Part shown: positions 2,673-12,262 of the stretch, piece after piece
Position numbering within the stretch: position 1 is the stretch's first letter
Layout of the letters: every line of letters begins with the position of its first letter
Assembly: GCF_008124615.1 (NCBI RefSeq)
Contig: NZ_VNIB01000006.1
Location: 62,001-126,000, forward strand
Source of the DNA: Geothermobacter ehrlichii
GTDB lineage: Bacteria > Desulfobacterota > Desulfuromonadia > Desulfuromonadales > Geothermobacteraceae
Direction: 5' to 3'
DNA length: 64,000 nucleotides
The notes under the pieces: generated by a model
Seen by the model: only the letters and a program-made list of their open reading frames with translations
What the model was told of the DNA's origin: nothing
The model's database searches: none
Program-made: the position numbers and the translations under genes

Positions 2673-4520
2673 ATGAAATTTCACAACCTGAGCATCCGCA
2701 ACCAGTTTTTCGTCGCACTGGGGCTCTTTTCCCTGCTGCTGATCACTACCGGGCTGACCGGCTTCTGGGGCATTTCGTCCCTGGGAGAAAAGACCCACCA
2801 GGCCCTGGCGACCGAAGGACAGATCGAGCAGGCCGCCGCAGCGGCCAACATGCATGTCCTCAGCCTGCGCCGTTACGAAAAGGACAGCCTGCTCAACCTG
2901 GCCGACCCCGACAAGTTCGTCTCCTACCAGAAAAAATGGTGGACGACCTATGACAAACTTCTCGCCAGCCTTGATCGCCTGGACAAGCTCTGCTTCCGGC
3001 CGGATGACAAGGCCGCAGTGCAAAAGATGCGCAGGGGAGCCGAAGCTTACCGGATCGGTATGCAAAATGTCTGGCAGGCCATTGTCGACGGTACCATCAG
3101 GGATCCGGCCGCTGGCAACCATGAACTGAAAAAATACAAGGAACCGATCCGCGAGATGAGCGAAACCACTTTCGCCCTGTCGCAGCAGGCCAACGCCAGG
3201 CTCGAAGCTCTCGGACCGGAGATCACCCGGCAGACCCGCCACTTCGCCATGATTCTTGCCCTGTTCTGCGGAATTTCCACCGTGCTGCTGCTCGCCTTCG
3301 GCCTGTACATGGCCCGCAATCTGACCCATCCGATCAAACGTCTGGTCGACATGATCCAAAAACTTGAAAGCGGCCATCTCGACATGCGTCTCAACCTCGA
3401 CCGCCGGGACGAAATCGGCCAGATGGCAAAGGCAATGGATGCCTGCGCCGACGCGATCGAGTATGAAATGGTTGCCAACCTGGAGCGGCTGGCCCAGGGA
3501 GACCTGACCTTCGAAATCATCCCCCGCGACCACCGCGACCGCTTCCGCAACAGCCTGAAAAAACTGGCCGACGACCTGAACGACATCATGGAAAAAATCC
3601 AGAATGCCGGTGAACAGATCGCCGCCGGCAGCATGCAGATCTCCAACAGCAGCCAGTCGCTGTCGGAAGCGGCCACCGAGTCGGCCGCCTCGCTGGAGGA
3701 GATGTCCGCCGCCATCACCGAAATTACCACCCAGGTCAAGCTCAATGCCGAAAACGCCACCAGGGCCAACCAGGTGACCCGCAACGCCCAACAGCTGGCC
3801 GACACAGGCAATGCGCGCATGCAGGAGATGGTCAAAGCGATGACCGAAATCGCCGAGTCGGGACAGAACATCAGCAAGATCATCAAGACCATCGACGAAA
3901 TCGCCTTCCAGACCAACCTGCTGGCGCTCAACGCCGCCGTCGAGGCGGCCCGCGCCGGTCAGCACGGCAAGGGCTTCGCCGTAGTCGCCGAAGAGGTGCG
4001 CAACCTGGCCGCCCGAAGCGCCAAGGCCGCCCGGGAAACCGCCGAAATGATCGAGGGCTCGGTCGAACTGACGGAAAGGGGCGCCCGATTGGCCGGCGAA
4101 ACCGAAGAAGCGCTGCAAAAGATCGTCGGCAGCATCACCGAGGTTGCGACCCTGGCGGCGGAGATCGCCTCGGCTTCCAGCGAACAATCCGAGGGCATCA
4201 CCCAAGTCAGTCAGGGACTGACGCAGATCGACCAGGTAACCCAACAGAATACCGCCACTGCCGAAGAATCGGCGGCCGCCGCTGAAGAGCTCTCGAGCCA
4301 GGCCGAAGAACTGCGGGAGATGCTGCGCCGCTTCAAGTTGAAAGGCAGCTCCGGCGTGCAGATGAGTGCGGTCTTCACGCCGCCGGCACCGGCACGGGTT
4401 GCGGCCACCGTCAGGTCTTCCAACAGCAGCAGCGGCTGGACCAGAATGGAATCACAGGCCGCCCCCCACAAACCGGACGAGGTCATCGCCCTGGACGACA
4501 GCGAATTCGGACGCTACTGA
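2673..4520 (+). CDS. Methyl-accepting chemotaxis protein (receptor 1)
   Basis: This 615-residue class-I receptor has TM1 at about residues 10-32 and a helical periplasmic sensor of about 160 residues (33-190). TM2 lies at about 191-213, and a HAMP domain with a second HAMP-like segment runs to about 310. The cytoplasmic signalling domain has its hairpin tip near residues 405-440 ([22 protein letters not shown]). The sensor looks like a four-helix-bundle type; its ligand is unknown. A Ser/Pro-rich linker leads to the C-terminal [12 protein letters not shown] tail, shared with the other three receptors here and possibly a docking site for CheR or CheD. GGGGGGA (2657-2663) is the ribosome site. 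It would signal through CheW and CheA, which are not encoded in the window. Confidence 0.95.
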
Positions 4521-4560
4521 GATGAAAACGGCGTGTTCCCCATACCTGGCCTGCTGCCCC

Positions 4561-4587
4561 AAAAGTGGCGGCAGGTCAGCCACTTTT
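4561..4587 (+). terminator. Terminator after receptor 1
   Basis: AAAAGTGGC (4561-4569) and GCCACTTTT (4579-4587) form a 9-bp stem with a 9-nt loop that ends in TTTT. The flanking sequence from the stop codon onward is repeated in diverged form after receptor 2 (about 7775-7842). Confidence 0.65.
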
Positions 4588-4660
4588 CGACCACCTGCCC
4601 CCAATCCACATCTTCATTGCCGACCGGCAATCCAAAATTGTTGAAAATTGGCTTTTCGCC

Positions 4661-4687
4661 TAAAGATTCGGCCAACATTAGCGATAA
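4661..4687 (+). promoter_or_regulatory. Candidate sigma-28 promoter of the PhnD-like/receptor 2 operon
   Basis: TAAA (4661-4664), 15 bases and AGCGATAA (4680-4687; 6 of 8 matches, with CGATAA intact) fit the FliA pattern. The start would fall near 4694, giving a leader of about 240 bases before the PhnD-like gene. Confidence 0.55.
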
Positions 4688-4693
4688 GCAATA

Positions 4694-4936
4694 TTAAAGT
4701 CGGGTCTGAATCCATAAGCCTTACCGGCCCGGTGAAGGCGATTAGTGGCATTGACGAAAACACCGCCGGGAGCTAGAGGGTTGACGCAGCTTTTTCTGAC
4801 AGCTTTCCAGGTCAACCCCTTCTACCCTGCTGTCCACGGCAAGTCGTGGAGGCAGGTTCGCCATCTACGAAACTCTGGATTTTCCAGGTTCGCATTCTCA
4901 GCTATGAGTTCATTACCAACCGAAAGGAAAGGCAAA
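4694..4936 (+). other. Long structured leader before the PhnD-like gene
   Basis: The stretch between the promoter candidate and the ATG at 4937 has no gene but has three hairpins. The first is GCCTTACCGG with CCGGTGAAGGC (4718-4738, one bulge). The second is GGGTTGAC (4778-4785) with GTCAACCC (4811-4818) over a 25-nt loop. The third is CCACG with CGTGG (4834-4849). I do not recognise a known riboswitch. It may be a regulatory leader or simply untranslated spacer. Confidence 0.4.
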
Positions 4937-5740
4937 ATGAAAAAGCTCATCTCAGCCGTGACCCTTGTTCTTCTGATCTCAGGCTTCTGCGGTTCTGCTT
5001 TCGCCATCGACTCCCTGACCTGCTGGTTCCCCCCGGGATGGAAGAACAAAGCCGACAAGGCACGAACAATCGCCAAGGCACTCTCGGAGGAAACAGGCAT
5101 CAAGATACGGCCCCGCATCGCCAAAAGCTATCCGGAGATCCTCAAAGCCTTCTCCACGAATCAACCCAACCTGGTTTATGCCGGCTCTTTCGTCCAGGCA
5201 ATCATCAAAGCTCGTGGTCTTGGAACTCCCCTGGTCCAGAATATCAACGGCAAAGATCTCTATTGCGGCGTTCTGGTCTATCCCAAAGGAGAAGACCCGG
5301 TTGCAATTCTCGCCAACTATCCGGACAAAATTGCTTATGCCATCGGCGCCTCTTCTGGGGAATCAAGCGCCAAAGCGGCAACAAACGGCAAGGCTGCAAT
5401 CGGCGTCGCCAACCACAGCGTGACCTGTGCGGCCGTCAAAGCGGGCAAAGCCAAGGCAGGTGTCGTAAAAAACTGGTGGTGGGAAGCCAACCGGCACAAA
5501 TTCCCCGAACTGGCAATGTACAAACTGCCCGGCATATCGATCAATAAAAACCCTGACAATGTGCTGACCGCATCCAATGCCGTTCCGGTAGAGATTCAGA
5601 AAAAAATCGCCGCAGCGGCCCAAGCGCGGAAAGAGGCATTCGACGCTCCGAAAATGGTTCCCTTCGACGTCTCCCGGCTTGATTTTCCTCTCAAGTTGAT
5701 GGCCAAGGGAAAAATTGATCCGATGACATACAGCTGGTAA
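4937..5740 (+). CDS. PhnD-like periplasmic phosphate/phosphonate-type solute-binding protein
   Basis: This 267-residue exported protein has a signal peptide (MKKLISAVTLVLLISGFCGSAFA) and a type-2 periplasmic-binding fold of the PhnD/SsuA kind. That fold is visible in FPPGWKNKADKARTIAKALSEETGIKIRPRIAKSYPEILKAF, the PNLVYAGSF segment, and the GVLVYPKG and AIGASSGESSAK strands. The ATG at 4937 follows GAAAGGAAAGG; an in-frame upstream ATG at 4745 lacks a ribosome site. No ABC permease or ATPase is near. A chemoreceptor gene starts 78 bases downstream in the same direction, so the binding protein more likely presents a ligand to that receptor than feeds a transporter. The ligand is not known. Confidence 0.8.
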   Translation: MKKLISAVTLVLLISGFCGSAFAIDSLTCWFPPGWKNKADKARTIAKALSEETGIKIRPRIAKSYPEILKAFSTNQPNLVYAGSFVQAIIKARGLGTPLVQNINGKDLYCGVLVYPKGEDPVAILANYPDKIAYAIGASSGESSAKAATNGKAAIGVANHSVTCAAVKAGKAKAGVVKNWWWEANRHKFPELAMYKLPGISINKNPDNVLTASNAVPVEIQKKIAAAAQARKEAFDAPKMVPFDVSRLDFPLKLMAKGKIDPMTYSW

Positions 5741-5818
5741 CGCGATCTCCCCGGTGACCCGGTGATCCACGACCGGGCCGTGCTTTTTCCTTGCGGGTCG
5801 ACAAGGGAGTTACGACAA

Positions 5819-7774
5819 ATGAGTATTACCAAAAAACTACCGCTGCTGATTTTCGTGACATTGACAGCGGCCTTTGTCTTGCTGGCGATACTGAATGGCG
5901 TCGGAATCACCCGAAACAATCAGAAAATTGTCTCATCGATCCTTGAACAGACAAAGACGAACAACAAGGCTTCAACAGCCCTGTTGCAAGACAATTCCGA
6001 AACCATCGCCACAAGTCTGGAGAATGCCAATCAAACAATCCGGGACATTATTCTCAATCTCTACAAAGACTCCTTCAACACCCTGGTCAAGGCGATGGCC
6101 AACCAGATTTTTCCCATGGTCGAGAATTTTGATTTCGACTCCCCACGTAAAGTAGTCCGGAAAATAATGGATTCCAACAAGGCGGTCAGCTGGGTCAAAC
6201 TGACAACAGCTGAGAATCCAGAGAAGGATGACATTATTCTCTTCGGCCACTACTCCGATGCCTCGGATCGCATGAATTTCAGCCAAACAATCAAGAGCAA
6301 ATTCGCGTTTCTGAAAATAGACCTGCAGGTCAACCTTGAAGGAATGCATGATTTGGCGAAGGTTGCGGCCACTTTTGAGCAGATCAACCAGCTTAACCGC
6401 CAAATGACCGAAAAACTCACAGCCCAAAGCCAGCAGGCACTGGCCGAAGCAGCAGCTTATGCGCGACAGATTGGCGACAAGGAACAGAGGCGCCTGAATA
6501 TGCTTAATGCTGGACTGATGTCAGGTGCTCTGATTCTGGTTTGCAGCATTCTCGCTATCGTGGTACGGCGCATGGTTACCAAACCTCTGGTGCAAACGAT
6601 GGAGATGCTGGAAGAACTGGAAAAAGGCCATCTCGACAAGCGCCTCCATATGGATCGCCACGACGAAATCGGACAGATGGCCAAGGCAATGGACAACTTT
6701 GCCGACAGTCTGGAATCTGAAATGGTCGCCAATCTGGAAAGACTCGCCAGCGGCGACCTGACTTTCAGCGTTACCCCGCGTGATGATCGGGACAAAATTC
6801 GCGGTGCATTGAAAAAGCTCGGCCACGACCTCAATGCCATCATGGAAAGAATTCATATCGCCGGCGAACAGATCGCCGCCGGCAGCATGCAGGTTTCCAA
6901 CACCAGCCAGTCCCTGTCGGAAGCCGCCGCCAAATCGGCCGCCTCTCTCGAAGAAATATCGGCCGCCATAAACGAGATCTCTGGCCAGATCAAGCGCAAC
7001 GCCGGAAACGCCGGCAAGGCCAACCAGGTCGTCAGTGAAGCCCAAAACCTGGCAAGCATAGGCAATGCCCGCATGCAAGAAATGGTCAAGGCGATGGCCG
7101 ATATCGCCGAATCGGGCCAGGACATCAGCAAAATCATCAAGACCATCGACGAAATCGCCTTCCAGACCAACCTGCTGGCGCTCAACGCCGCCGTCGAGGC
7201 GGCCCGCGCCGGCCAGCACGGCAAGGGTTTCGCCGTGGTCGCCGAGGAGGTACGCAACCTGGCCGCCCGCAGTGCCAGGGCCGCCCAGGAAACCGCCGAA
7301 ATGATCGAGAGCTCGGTCGAACTGACGGAAAGGGGCGCCCGGCTGGCCGGCGAAACCGAAGAGGCGCTGCAAAAAATCGTCGACAGCATCTCCCAAGTCT
7401 CCGTTATGGCGTCGGAAATCGCCGCCGCTTCCTCAGATCAGGCCGAAGGCATCACCCAGGTGAGCTTGGGATTGACCCAAATCGATCAGACCACCCAACA
7501 GAACACCGCCAGTGCCGAAGAATCAGAAGCCGCTGCACAGGAACTGTCGAACCAGGCCGAGGAGCTGCGACAGATGCTGCGCCGCTTCAAGTTGAAAGGC
7601 AGCTCCGGCGTGCAGGTGAGTGCGGTCGTCACGCCGCCGGCACCGGCACAGGTTGCGGCCACCGTCAGGTCTTCCAACAGCAGCAGTGGCTGGGCCAGAA
7701 TGGAATCACAGGCCGCCGCCCCCAAGCCGGACGAGGTCGTCGCCCTGGACGACTCCGAATTCGGCCACTATTGA
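5819..7774 (+). CDS. Methyl-accepting chemotaxis protein (receptor 2, paired with the PhnD-like protein)
   Basis: This 651-residue receptor has TM1 at about 7-27, a periplasmic domain at about 28-225, and TM2 at about 227-250 ([17 protein letters not shown]). A HAMP domain and a signalling domain follow, with the tip near residue 444. The sensor differs from receptor 1, while the cytoplasmic half and the tail ([12 protein letters not shown]) are nearly the same. An 80-base block at the tip is almost identical in DNA to receptor 1, which suggests duplication or gene conversion. The ATG at 5819 follows AAGGGAG; an in-frame codon at 5762 has no ribosome site. Its position after the PhnD-like gene suggests indirect ligand sensing through that protein. 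Confidence 0.95.
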
Positions 7775-8003
7775 GATGAAAACGGGAGATTTTCCATGCC
7801 TGACCTGCTGTCCCTAAAAAGGCTGCAGATCAGCCACTTTCACAAACCAGCAGTGCTGAACTCGCATCTACCAAATACAAAAAGGGGCTGTCCTGGACAA
7901 CTAGCCCATATGCTCTTTAACAAGTTGTTTCAACTGGGATAATTGCTCTTTTTGGTCCACCTCCGCCCTTCGGGGGCTTTTTTGTTCAAATCATATTTCC
8001 GCC
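7775..8003 (+). other. Intergenic region after receptor 2
   Basis: The first 70 bases are a diverged copy of the 3' flank of receptor 1, including a shorter hairpin (GGCTG-CAGAT-CAGCC, 7821-7835). A further hairpin with a T-run lies at 7963-7983. No gene was seen in between. GGGGCTGTCC at about 7882 resembles some insertion-sequence ends, but no partner end or transposase was found. Confidence 0.5.
7963..7983 (+). terminator. Probable terminator upstream of the receptor remnant
   Basis: A short GCCC/GGGC stem around a TTCGG loop is followed by six T residues. It separates receptor 2 from the next sigma-28-type promoter. Confidence 0.55.
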
Positions 8004-8030
8004 TAAATCAGGTGACAACAATGCCGATAT
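8004..8030 (+). promoter_or_regulatory. Sigma-28 promoter upstream of the receptor remnant and receptor 3
   Basis: TAAA (8004-8007), 15 bases and GCCGATAT (8023-8030) match the FliA consensus at all of the -35 core and 7 of 8 positions of the -10. Transcription would start near 8037, read through the receptor remnant and reach receptor 3 at 8349. Confidence 0.75.
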
Positions 8031-8077
8031 GAAAAATATCCCGTTATTCCATCGGCACACCCGTAAGGGACTCGAGG

Positions 8078-8262
8078 ATGTCGCCCGAGCAGACCGAAGG
8101 CGTCGCCCAGGTAAGCCAGGGACTGACCCAAATCGACCAGGCAACCCAGCCAAACACCACCAGCGCCGAAAAATCGGCGGCCGCGGCCGAGGAACTGTCG
8201 AACCAGGTCGAAGAACTGCTGCTGTTGCCTGGACTGTTCACCCTTAGGACCGGGGACAATTC
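8078..8262 (+). pseudogene. Remnant of a chemoreceptor C-terminal signalling helix
   Basis: The frame starting at 8078 reads [19 protein letters not shown] and continues into [15 protein letters not shown]. This aligns with the last signalling helix of receptors 1-4 (for example [18 protein letters not shown]). It continues into a degraded LFTLRTGDN that still resembles the FKLKGSSG linker. Sensor, membrane segments, HAMP and tip are all missing. It lies between a good sigma-28 promoter and receptor 3, so it looks like the scar of a deleted fifth receptor gene. The frame stays open into the receptor 3 start, and a short peptide could still be made. Confidence 0.8.
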
Positions 8263-8348
8263 AACCCGACGTGACATCGCCCATCGCACATCTTGTCAGA
8301 CGCTGGTGCACGACGGTCAGATATTCAACCCCCAAAAGGAGTACCCAG

Positions 8349-10130
8349 ATGAAATCCAGTGCCCAAATCGGTCTCTGCGTCAAGCTGCCCGCTCTGATCG
8401 CTACAATCACCTTGGTGACACTCAGCCTGATCGGCATTTCTCTGGCGGTTCTCAACAAGCAGAAAAATGACGCACAGATTATCAATATTGCCGGCCGGCA
8501 ACGTATGCTCAGCCAGAAAATGACCAAAGAAGCTCTTACCATCCTGGCCGGGCTAAACGTCTCCAGCACTCGCGCGGCATTGAAACAGACCCGCGAGCTG
8601 TTTGACACCTCCCTGAAAACCCTGATCGAGGGAGATCGCACACTCAATCTTCCAGCTACCGACAATCCGGAAATCCTGGCGCAACTGAACCGGGTGAACG
8701 CTATCTGGAAGACTTTTTCGCCACATGTTCAGACCGTGATCGACAGTCAGGACCCGGTTGCCATTCAATCGGCAATCAAAACCATCATCGCCACCAACCT
8801 GACTCTGCTCAGGGAAATGAACAAGGCGGTCATTCTCTACGAACAGGTTTCGCGAAAAAAAGTCAACATCCTGAGAACTCTGTTGATCTGCGGTGGTCTG
8901 ATTACCTTGATCGTCACCTTCCTCTGCTGGCTGATGGTCAACCGCAGGGTGGTCCGACCGTTAGGCAGGATCGTCACCATGATCCTCGGCATGGAAACCG
9001 GCCAGCTCGACCGACGCCTGAACCTGACCGGCAACGACGAGATCAGTCAACTTGGCCAGGCTCTGGACCGGTTTGCCGCCAACCTCCAGGACGAAATCCT
9101 CACCGCCTTCGACCGTCTCGCCAAGGGAGATTTCACTTTCAGCGCCAAGGGACTGATCAGAGAACCGCTGCAGAGAGCGAATCACAGTCTCAATCGGCTG
9201 CTGGGACAGGTGCAGACCGCCGGACACGAAATCGCCGCGGCGGCGGACGATGTCTCCAGATCCAGTCAGGCGCTTTCTGGCGGCGCTACCGAATCGGCGG
9301 CTTCCCTGGAAGAAGTGAATGCCTCGATGCAAGAGATCGCTAATCAGACGAAACAGAATGCCGATAATGCCATCGCCGCCAACAATCTTTCCAGCCGGGC
9401 TCGCGAAGCGGCTGAAAAAGGAGCCCGGCAGATGACCGAAATGGTCGCCGCCATGAGCGAAATCAACCAGGCCGGCCAGGAGATCAGCAAGATCATCAAG
9501 GTCATCGACGAAATCGCCTTCCAGACCAACCTGCTGGCCCTCAATGCCGCCGTCGAAGCCGCCCGGGCCGGAACTGCAGGCAAGGGATTTGCCGTGGTTG
9601 CCGAAGAAGTACGCAACCTCGCCGGGCGCAGCGCCAAGGCGGCACGAGAGACCGCGGCCATGATCGAAGCCTCGGTCGAAAAAACCTCTCGCGGCAGCGA
9701 GATTGCCGACCGCACTTCCCTGGCCCTGGAAGAAATCGTCAACAGCATCAGCCAGGCTTCCGACCTGGTCGCCAAAATCGCCCAGGCAAGTACTGAACAG
9801 GCCCAAGGAATTGCGGAGATCACAAGTGGCCTGAACCAGATTGACCAGGTGACACAAAAAAACACTGCCAACGCCGAAAATTTGGCAAATGCAGCCGAGG
9901 AGCTTTCAAGTCAGGCCGCCCGAATGCAACAGATGCTGCGCCGGTTCAAGCTGAAAGGCAACTCGGGCGTGCAGATGAGCACTGCCGTCACGCCGTCGGC
10001 ACCGGCCCCACGAGTTGCAACCACCAGGGCGTCCGACAGCAGCAGCGGCTGGAGCAGAATGGAATCACAGGCCGCCCTCAAGCCGGACGAGGTCATCGTT
10101 CTGGACGATGCTGAATTCGGCCGTTACTGA
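8349..10130 (+). CDS. Methyl-accepting chemotaxis protein with PilJ-type sensor (receptor 3)
   Basis: This 593-residue receptor has TM1 at about 10-35 and a periplasmic helical domain containing [20 protein letters not shown] near residues 43-62. That is the hallmark of the PilJ/NarX-like N-terminal sensor, where the equivalent helix binds nitrate or nitrite in NarX. TM2 is at about 171-197, followed by HAMP and a signalling domain with its tip near 386. The tail [12 protein letters not shown] matches the other receptors. The ATG at 8349 follows AAAAGGAG; an in-frame upstream codon at 8271 has no ribosome site. The ligand is unproven. The gene is followed by a strong terminator. Confidence 0.93.
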
Positions 10131-10160
10131 AGCCGCAGACAACTTCTTTCAGCTGCATGT

Positions 10161-10193
10161 GGCCGTCTTCTGCATTGAAGACGGCCTTTTTTT
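10161..10193 (+). terminator. Rho-independent terminator after receptor 3
   Basis: GGCCGTCTTC (10161-10170) pairs perfectly with GAAGACGGCC (10177-10186) over a 6-nt loop, followed by seven T residues. Confidence 0.95.
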
Positions 10194-10292
10194 CATCCCG
10201 TTACCCCTTTCCCGACAACACCATACAATAAGTAAAAACTAATTATTGCACTCTAACTGCCTGGTTTATAACAACTTTTAACACGATTTACC

Positions 10293-10319
10293 TAAACGGA
10301 TCCCTCCCTTCGCCGATCT
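10293..10319 (+). promoter_or_regulatory. Sigma-28 promoter of receptor 4
   Basis: TAAA (10293-10296), 15 bases and GCCGATCT (10312-10319) match the FliA consensus with one -10 deviation counted from GCCGATAA (C at position 7) and one at position 8. The start would be near 10326, 125 bases before the ATG. The preceding 100 bases are AT-rich and contain no gene. Confidence 0.7.
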
Positions 10320-10450
10320 GTTTATCAAACCTGGACCCGCCCTGACGGCCTGCTGGGCCTGCCTCACACTCTCCCTGCGAGCAGTAGGAGAATCCCACAG
10401 GGGACCGTTGCGGTTGGACCATCGACACACCGCAAGGAGGTTTGCATCCG

Positions 10451-12262
10451 ATGTCACTGAAGAACCTGAGTATTGGCAGCAAAATCTATCTCGTTTCCGG
10501 ACTGTTGATCCTGATCTTCACTACCTGCCTGTCCTGGATCTACGTTCGTTATCGCGACCAGGTGTGGCAAGGCAGTCGTCAGGAACTGGCCATGGCCGTC
10601 GATACCGCATGGGGCATCGTCGATCATTACAGCAAGCAGGCGGGTGAAGAGCTCTCGGTCAGCGAAGCACAGATGCTGGCAAAAAGCGCCATTCGTAATC
10701 TGCGTTTCGACAACAATCTCTATTTCTGGATCAACGACACGACACCGGCCATGATCATGCACCCCATCAAGCCGCAGCTCGAGGGTAAGAACCTGGCCAA
10801 CGTCAAAGACCCCAACGGCAAGCATCTCTTCCGGGAAATGGTCCAGGTCACCTCCAAAGACGGCGCCGGCTTCGTCCAGTACCAGTGGCCGAAACCGGGG
10901 CAGGAGAAACCGACCGACAAGCTCTCCTACGTGCGCAAGCATCCCGGCTGGGGATGGATCATCGGCGCCGGCATCTACCTGGATGACCTCCAGTCACGCA
11001 TCAGTCATGCCTTCTGGACCATCATCGGCGGCCTGGCGCTGGCCATCGTCGCCTCGATCGTGTTGGTCTTCTTCCTCGCCCGCCATGTCTCGCGCCCCCT
11101 GCACCAGACGGTGGAAATGATCGAGGAGATGGAACGCGGCCACCTCGACATGCGGCTCAACCTCAACGACCGCAAGGACGAAATGGGACGCATGGCCCGA
11201 GCCATGGACGCCTTTGCCGACTCACTGCAAAACGAGATGGTCGCGTCACTTCAGAAGCTGGCCAATGGTGATCTCGATTTCAGCATCACCCCACGCGACG
11301 ACAAAGATGTACTGCGCCATTCGCTGAAGAAGCTGGAGATGGACCTCAACAGCATCATGAGCGAGATCCAGCATTCCGGCGAACAGATCGCCATCGGCGC
11401 CGACCAGGTTTCCGGCGCCAGCCAGTCCCTCTCTCGCGGCGCCACCGAATCGGCCGCCTCACTGGAGCAGATCGCCGCCTCGCTGCTGACCATCACCGAG
11501 CAGATCCAGAAAAACGCCAGTAACGCCGACAAGGCGAACCACCTTTCGAGCCAGGCGCAAAAAGCCGCCGAAGACGGCAATTCCGAAATGGAATCGATGC
11601 TCGCCGCCATGAACGAAATCGCCGAGGCGGGTCAGAATATCAACAAGATCATCAAGACCATCGACGAGATCGCTTTCCAGACCAACCTGCTGGCGCTCAA
11701 CGCCGCCGTCGAGGCAGCCCGCGCCGGCCAGCACGGCAAGGGCTTCGCCGTGGTCGCCGAAGAGGTGCGCAACCTGGCCGCCCGCAGCGCCAGAGCCGCC
11801 CGGGAGACGGCGGAACTGATCGAAGGGTCGGTCGAATTGACCGACAAGGGGACCGACATCGCCAACAAGACCGCCAAGGCCCTGGAGCGCATCGTCGGCA
11901 GCATCACCGAAGTCTCCGATCTGGTGGCCGACATCGCCACAGCCTCCAATGAGCAAGCCGAAGGCATCAACCAGATCAACATCGGCCTGACCCAAATCGA
12001 CCATGTCACCCAGCAGAACAGCGCCACTGCCGAGGAGACCGCCGCCTCCAGCCAGGAGCTTTCGAGCCAGGTTTCAAAACTGCAACAGATGCTGCGGCGT
12101 TTCCGGCCGAAAAGCGCCAGAGCCAAAGAATGGTCGGTCCCCCAGCCTACCAGGGCAGTGACGCCGTCTCCCAAAACCCCGCCCGCTCCAGCGGCCGCGG
12201 CATCTACTACAGCCAAGGAAAGCGTCATTCAACTCGATGACAGCGAGTTCGATCGCTACTGA
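10451..12262 (+). CDS. Methyl-accepting chemotaxis protein with single Cache sensor (receptor 4)
   Basis: This 603-residue receptor has TM1 at about 10-32 and an extracytoplasmic sCache_2-type domain (33-185). The domain's typical strands are visible as [39 protein letters not shown] and [17 protein letters not shown]2 is at about 190-212, followed by HAMP and a signalling domain with its tip near 401. sCache_2 receptors often bind small carboxylates, but the ligand here is not known. The tail [12 protein letters not shown] is a variant of the shared C-terminal motif. The ATG at 10451 has AAGGAGG (10434-10440) at ideal spacing; a TTG at 10442 is too close to it. Confidence 0.95.

Follow-up and report, generated by a model that had tools for sequence, protein, structure and literature searches.

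In the 64-kb stretch of DNA analysed here (the window), a gene for a PhnD-fold periplasmic binding protein lies directly ahead of a chemoreceptor gene, and this arrangement raises the question of whether the binding protein serves that receptor or works as part of a transporter. The binding-protein gene, on the forward strand, starts with an ATG at 4937, its stop codon ends at 5740, and it encodes 267 amino acids. The sole strongly hydrophobic stretch of the protein spans residues 4-22, and we read residues 1 to about 23 as a Sec signal peptide of a protein that would be secreted. After a gap of 78 bp, and on the common strand, the gene of the chemoreceptor follows (receptor 2, 5819-7774), whose 651 amino acids are arranged as a transmembrane segment, a periplasmic sensor domain, a second transmembrane segment, a HAMP domain (48.5 bits), and an MCPsignal domain (163.6 bits). 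The hydrophobic stretches at residues 7-25 and 231-249, together with both domains, place receptor 2 among the MCPs; GGDEF gave no match to it in the Pfam scan. A secreted PF12974 protein with a chemoreceptor 78 bp downstream on the same strand is what the original prediction had described, and the open reading frames and the Pfam scan confirmed this. The same was true of its claim that no permease or ATPase genes stand beside the pair, as the five proteins scanned between 2673 and 12262 are the binding protein and four receptors.

Against Pfam, the binding protein matched only PF12974 (Phosphonate-bd), with 44.1 bits over a cut-off of 27, and is thus a member of this family, which was matched by 32 of 32 alignment members (the window protein and 31 others) at E ≤ 0.01. 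With the PhnD equivalog TIGR03431 it scored 17.3 bits, below the NCBIfam cut-off of 261.1. The predicted structure had a pLDDT of 96.5, and VIA-align placed XAC2383 (Z 22.4), ArrX (Z 22.3), and PtxB (Z 21.6) on the model about equally well, so we count these matches as tied; AioX (Z 19.9) and Escherichia coli PhnD (Z 19.1) scored lower. PtxB ranked first in Foldseek and was also the best hit of a PDB sequence search, at E 0.033. The PhnD fold proposed earlier is supported by the PF12974 match and these structural matches. Next, the ligand pocket was compared with that of E. coli PhnD, which shows 16% identity to the window protein in the alignment. PhnD Tyr47 and Tyr93, which we take to be phosphonate contacts, aligned with Tyr65 and Tyr109 of the window protein. 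PhnD Ser127-Thr128 and His157, presumably phosphonate contacts too, sit two columns off Ser139-Ser140 and His160, and because the offset is identical in both cases, we infer that these residues are equivalent. Tyr65, Ser139, Ser140, and His160 are invariant in the 32 members, and Tyr109 is nearly so. The region of PhnD Glu177, assumed here to be an amine contact, corresponds in the window protein to a Trp-Trp-Trp stretch with two Trp invariant in the 32 members. Judged from the alignment, an anion pocket is plausible, and its residues would suit a small anion without an amine.

We then analysed how the pair is distributed. Among 98 related genomes, 24 matched the binding protein at E ≤ 0.001; 14, own genome included, scored above 190 bits, with identities of 53-83% outside the own genome, and the remaining matches were remote (26-32% identical). 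Scanning the species genomes of GTDB yielded 37 loci, or 36 once a contig-split Geothermobacter gene (L092/L093) was merged, and the window and seven loci from the whole-genome search alone (L032, L033, L035, L039, L124, L125, and L126) brought the set to 44. The labelled loci are mostly from Thermodesulfobacteriota, and also from Nitrospirota (L068), Rokuibacteriota (L071), and Myxococcota, with L066 labelled as a gammaproteobacterial symbiont of a tubeworm; many are MAGs, where misbinning is possible. A chemoreceptor was found within 600 bp of the binding-protein gene in 24 of the 44 loci, 21 of them by pattern and three (L081, L087, and L125) missed by the pattern and shown by other comparison; the L125 receptor was counted on an open reading frame of 208 amino acids that covers the sensor half only. 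Apart from L059 and L066, where the strands are opposite, the neighbouring receptors (22 of 24) share the strand of the binding-protein gene. The receptor carries a sensor domain of the same type as receptor 2 in 14 of the 44 loci (the window, L033, L060, L061, L063, L064, L066, L068, L072, L088, L089, L092, L124, and L125) and a different sensor region in 10. Divergent sensors occur in L063, L064, L066, and L068 (17-21% identity, 30-43 bits), but the segment P-x-[VI]-E-x-[FY]-D is preserved in them.

The other 20 loci showed no receptor within 600 bp; for L071, L074, L076, and L085, the available sequence on one side of the gene is shorter than this distance. In this set, L077 has a receptor 1279 bp upstream, and L086 (scanned as L038) has an open reading frame with a sub-threshold MCPsignal match (25.1 bits versus 34.6). 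Because these 20 loci lack such a neighbour, the binding protein can have other partners, and is not bound to an adjacent receptor everywhere. Among the receptor-less loci, the binding-protein gene is followed by a rubredoxin-like/pyridine-nucleotide oxidoreductase in L035 (9540-11036) and by an FMN reductase in L073 (6891-7466). As a control, we used 19 loci of remote PhnD-like proteins (L015-L024, L028, and L105-L112): within about 1.5 kb, a receptor pattern was present in two (L015 and L105), a GGDEF pattern in seven, a kinase pattern in three, and none of these in seven. Conservation of the pair elsewhere, which the original prediction had named as a check, exceeds chance, and the refuting outcome named there, a pair missing from relatives, did not arise.

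Some of these neighbourhoods contain further binding proteins. A PF12849 protein comes after the receptor in L063 (8639-9424) and in L059 (9110-9907, on the receptor's strand), and a Peripla_BP_6 protein lies ahead of the pair in L031 (8652-9758); from these few examples, extra binding-protein helpers look common near these receptors. In L081, tandem copies of the binding-protein gene (4834-5838 and 5920-6741) precede a receptor-like open reading frame, and upstream are a divergent receptor-like open reading frame and a further binding-protein-like one.

The core of the receptor 2 sensor domain (5999-6445, forward strand; alignments A5 and A6) contains the segment P-M-V-E-N-F-D-F-D and has no Pfam match. 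When 11 members of this domain were scanned, no Pfam family covered it and none matched more than one member, the best E value being a chance-like 0.025. To follow the domain, profile A3 was built from five receptors that stand beside the gene (window, L030, L031, L033, and L040); these are five of the 14 same-sensor receptors, and their adjacency is therefore built into the profile. In 395 genomes of the phylum, profile A3 matched four (G000, G004, G139, and G175), and each of these has the sensor domain and the binding protein within 400 bp of one another; the binding protein itself scored above 180 bits in seven of the 395. Neither G139 nor G175 had contributed to the profile, and their gene orders are unlike each other; by a rough estimate, random gene placement would give each of the two adjacencies about once in a thousand. 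A core profile with 11 members found again the same four genomes. In the 98 relatives, strong matches to profile A3 came from the five training genomes only, and two weak partial matches (28.2 and 21.5 bits) were left uncounted. In the structural model of the domain (pLDDT 85.5, pTM 0.52), a long and then a short helix precede four strands, after which comes another long helix. Its fold matches were weak, to TlpA (Z 10.0 over 122 residues) and the LapD-type CdgS9 (Z 9.8 over 113), and because ribosomal proteins scored close behind these, we name no family for it; nor does a fold missing from these matches count as rejected. Foldseek gave no match to the model at E ≤ 0.001, and the PDB sequence search with the domain gave chance-like matches only.

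The receptor row of the window, at 2673-12262, grew through duplication: between receptors 1 and 2, the segments 3358-4586 and 6612-7840 share 82% identity along 1229 bp. A remnant of 134 bp at 8086-8219, left from the 3' part of a receptor gene, is about 80% identical to both receptors. The four receptors end at 4520, 7774, 10130, and 12262 with EFGRY, EFGHY, EFGRY, and EFDRY, ends which we take to fit the CheR-tethering pentapeptide pattern. Such a duplicated row speaks for the alternative that the two genes became adjacent by chance or by cluster growth; the receptor would then sense a ligand of its own without help, and the binding protein would act otherwise, e.g., with a kinase or cyclase encoded elsewhere. 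The 10 loci where the neighbouring receptor has another sensor region point the same way, as do the GGDEF-type open reading frames within about 1.5 kb of seven of the 10 remote PhnD-like proteins of relatives (L015-L024). However, the same sensor type accompanies the same binding protein in loci labelled as Thermodesulfobacteriota, as Nitrospirota, and as the gammaproteobacterial symbiont, and no strong sensor-domain match without the binding protein was found in the 98 and 395 genomes searched, and we regard a fortuitous adjacency as quite improbable. In a tree of 44 binding proteins, which includes both genes of L081 and leaves out L094 (a gene split over two frames), the midpoint root separates L124 and L125 from the other loci with the same-sensor label, and this label needs nine changes, where shuffled labels needed 12.0 on average and 21 of 500 shuffles were as low. 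Since the label spans the root and requires these nine changes, the pair would be either old, with repeated receptor loss or swapping, or transferred as a unit.

Ahead of the binding-protein gene, at 4661-4687 on the forward strand, the pattern TAAA-N16-GCGATAA forms a sigma-28 (flagellar/chemotaxis) promoter-like site, and the receptor-type promoter claimed for this locus is present as such a pattern. It is the single match in the 64-kb window, with 0.03 expected in shuffles, for a pattern written only after the site was seen. Scored with a fixed sigma-28 consensus, the site agreed at 10 of 12 positions, a value reached in 2% of shuffles. This scoring was extended to 42 rows, leaving out L071, L092, and L094. 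At least 10 of 12 positions agreed in four of 13 same-sensor rows (window, L063 with a perfect sigma-28-like site, L066, and L072), in one of 11 rows with another receptor (L081, for one of its two genes), and in none of the 18 rows without a receptor. The remaining nine of the 13 same-sensor rows scored below this value; therefore, the promoter-like site is common to some pairs only. In the window, the two genes may be transcribed together. A terminator search between them gave a hairpin at 5758-5777, but hits of this kind are about as many as chance would give (nine versus 6.0, sd 2.6). An RNA element at the pair was considered and rejected, as RNase P and a single tRNA were the only Rfam matches of the window at gathering cut-offs, with nothing near the pair. 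Elsewhere in the window, a full sigma-28-type match, TAAA-N15-GCCGATAA, was found at 1759-1785; no gene clearly starts right after it on that strand, and the receptor that comes next begins at 2673.

We next asked which transporter could use the binding protein. In the own genome, PF12974 gave five matches, one of them this gene, and PhnE gave four, all below the cut-off; by their scores, the permeases most like PhnE there resemble the ProW/choline and amino-acid types. Across the 18 carrier genomes, PhnE exceeded the cut-off in two (G025 and G006), on contigs other than that of the gene. PF00528 permeases were present in all 18 (194 matches by per-genome counts). Among the matches listed, two lie within 10 kb of the gene on G175:C544, upstream and on the same strand, and one is about 6.6 kb off on G054:C80, with two receptors in between. 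In G175, the pair comes after an ABC cluster on the same strand that by eye is oligopeptide importer-like. Near the 44 loci, an ATPase pattern, a regular expression that misses some, matched in L032, L061, L075, and L089, and the neighbourhood listings showed further ATPase-like open reading frames in L031/L088, L094, L124, and L125. Neither the listings, read by eye, nor the ATPase pattern revealed a PhnC/PhnE-like ATPase-permease pair at any of the 44 loci. In agreement with the original prediction, a dedicated Phn-type transporter was found neither in the own genome nor in most carriers. The candidate role of Phn-type ABC transporter subunit, for which we looked for PhnE in the genome or an adjoining gene, was rejected.

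These data bear on the alternative that the binding protein works in uptake, as the substrate-binding subunit for an ABC permease whose genes lie elsewhere. It might or might not act in taxis as well, a double role of the kind that maltose-binding protein has with Tar. The family PF12974 is named after transporter subunits, PtxB is structurally tied with the best matches and comes first in Foldseek, 20 of 44 loci have no receptor within 600 bp, every carrier has PF00528 permeases, and an ABC cluster precedes the pair in G175. Nonetheless, such a role is unlikely: the listings and the ATPase pattern showed a Phn-type ATPase-permease pair at none of the 44 loci, a PhnE over the cut-off occurs in two of the 18 carriers and there off the gene's contig, the top-scoring PhnE-like permeases in the own genome look like other types, and the score for the PhnD equivalog is far under its cut-off.

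The reading that we consider likely is that the pair forms a two-part chemosensor, in which the loaded binding protein docks on receptor 2 and steers swimming with respect to a small oxyanion-like ligand. A two-part sensor for a small anion is probable because the pair recurs in distant bacteria without a transporter of its own, and the pair, which is real and conserved, is probably functional in binding-protein-assisted sensing. The binding protein would be exported to the periplasm and there close on its small ligand; the likeliest candidate is an oxyanion-like anion of the phosphite, phosphonate, arsenic-oxyanion, or sulfur-oxyanion type. The closed form may then dock on the periplasmic sensor domain of the neighbouring receptor, which would signal through HAMP to the chemotaxis kinase, so that swimming is steered towards or away from the ligand; the binding protein would feed no Phn-type ABC transporter. 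A broader proposal, which we advance tentatively and hold at somewhat less than even chances, is that a PhnD-fold subfamily and a cognate sensor domain absent from Pfam, serving only as a docking platform, make up a transporter-free module that is co-inherited across anaerobic lineages, and whose binding protein can be re-paired with other receptor types. If this is true, PhnD-fold proteins would be detachable sensors of chemoreceptors, as they are for kinases and cyclases, with no role in uptake, and such a receptor-ligand pair, whose docking domain is unclassified, could be tested in Geothermobacter hydrogeniphilus HR-1 and Desulfosarcina alkanivorans PL12. Given the habitats of both strains, phosphite and arsenic or sulfur oxyanions are plausible cues.

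Finally, the pair was compared with known systems. In the open-access literature, among the matches listed, we found no description of a chemoreceptor whose partner is a PhnD-fold protein, nor of a PhnD-fold subfamily linked to a chemoreceptor whose sensor domain is unclassified. XAC2383 and ArrX serve membrane sensors, and the partner of ArrX is the histidine kinase ArrS. In the XAC2383-XAC2382 system of Xanthomonas citri, attributed to Teixeira et al. 2018, XAC2383 reportedly docks on a periplasmic Cache domain and is said to prefer phosphate-containing anions. Like the window pair, this system places a PhnD-fold periplasmic protein beside a membrane receptor, and XAC2383 is the best, although tied, structural match, with a sequence identity to the window protein of about 12%; the partner there is a diguanylate cyclase, whereas here it is a chemoreceptor with MCPsignal. 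The seven remote PhnD-like proteins of relatives at L018-L024, each with a GGDEF-type open reading frame within about 1.5 kb, are possible pairs of the XAC2383-XAC2382 kind.

The fold is also shared with the arsenate-linked ArrX and the arsenite-linked AioX. According to PMC7533571, AioX signals via the kinase AioS with no transporter involved, its arsenite-binding cysteine is Cys108, and, in Agrobacterium GW4, an mcp gene adjoins aioXSRBA, whose Mcp product itself reportedly binds As(III). The AioX partner is a histidine kinase, whereas the neighbour of the window protein is a chemoreceptor; in the alignment of the 32 members, the cysteines of the window protein are not invariant. The transporter proteins PhnD and PtxB have the fold in common with the window protein too, but the latter has no recognised PhnC/PhnE partner and lies below the PhnD equivalog cut-off.

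Maltose-binding protein and LsrB, besides assisting receptors, also serve a transporter. In our proposal, a periplasmic binding protein likewise presents the ligand to a chemoreceptor; unlike in those cases, no Phn-type transporter was found here, and the receptor gene is adjacent. According to PMC9602780, Tar with maltose-binding protein and Tsr with LsrB are binding-protein-assisted chemoreceptors, and the activation of chemoreceptors, kinases, and cyclases by ligand-loaded binding proteins is widespread. PMC11113362 adds that many binding-protein-activated kinases are encoded beside their binding protein, and PMC8846402 treats binding-protein domains in c-di-GMP proteins. The less-described sensor dedicated to its receptor that had been predicted is borne out in part: the recurring pair stands, while AioX-AioS had already described the principle and the receptor-less loci speak against strict dedication. 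Because sensor-serving proteins of this fold have been described (AioX with AioS, ArrX, and XAC2383), sensing through PhnD-fold binding proteins is already known as a principle, and what the pair adds is a new variant of it.
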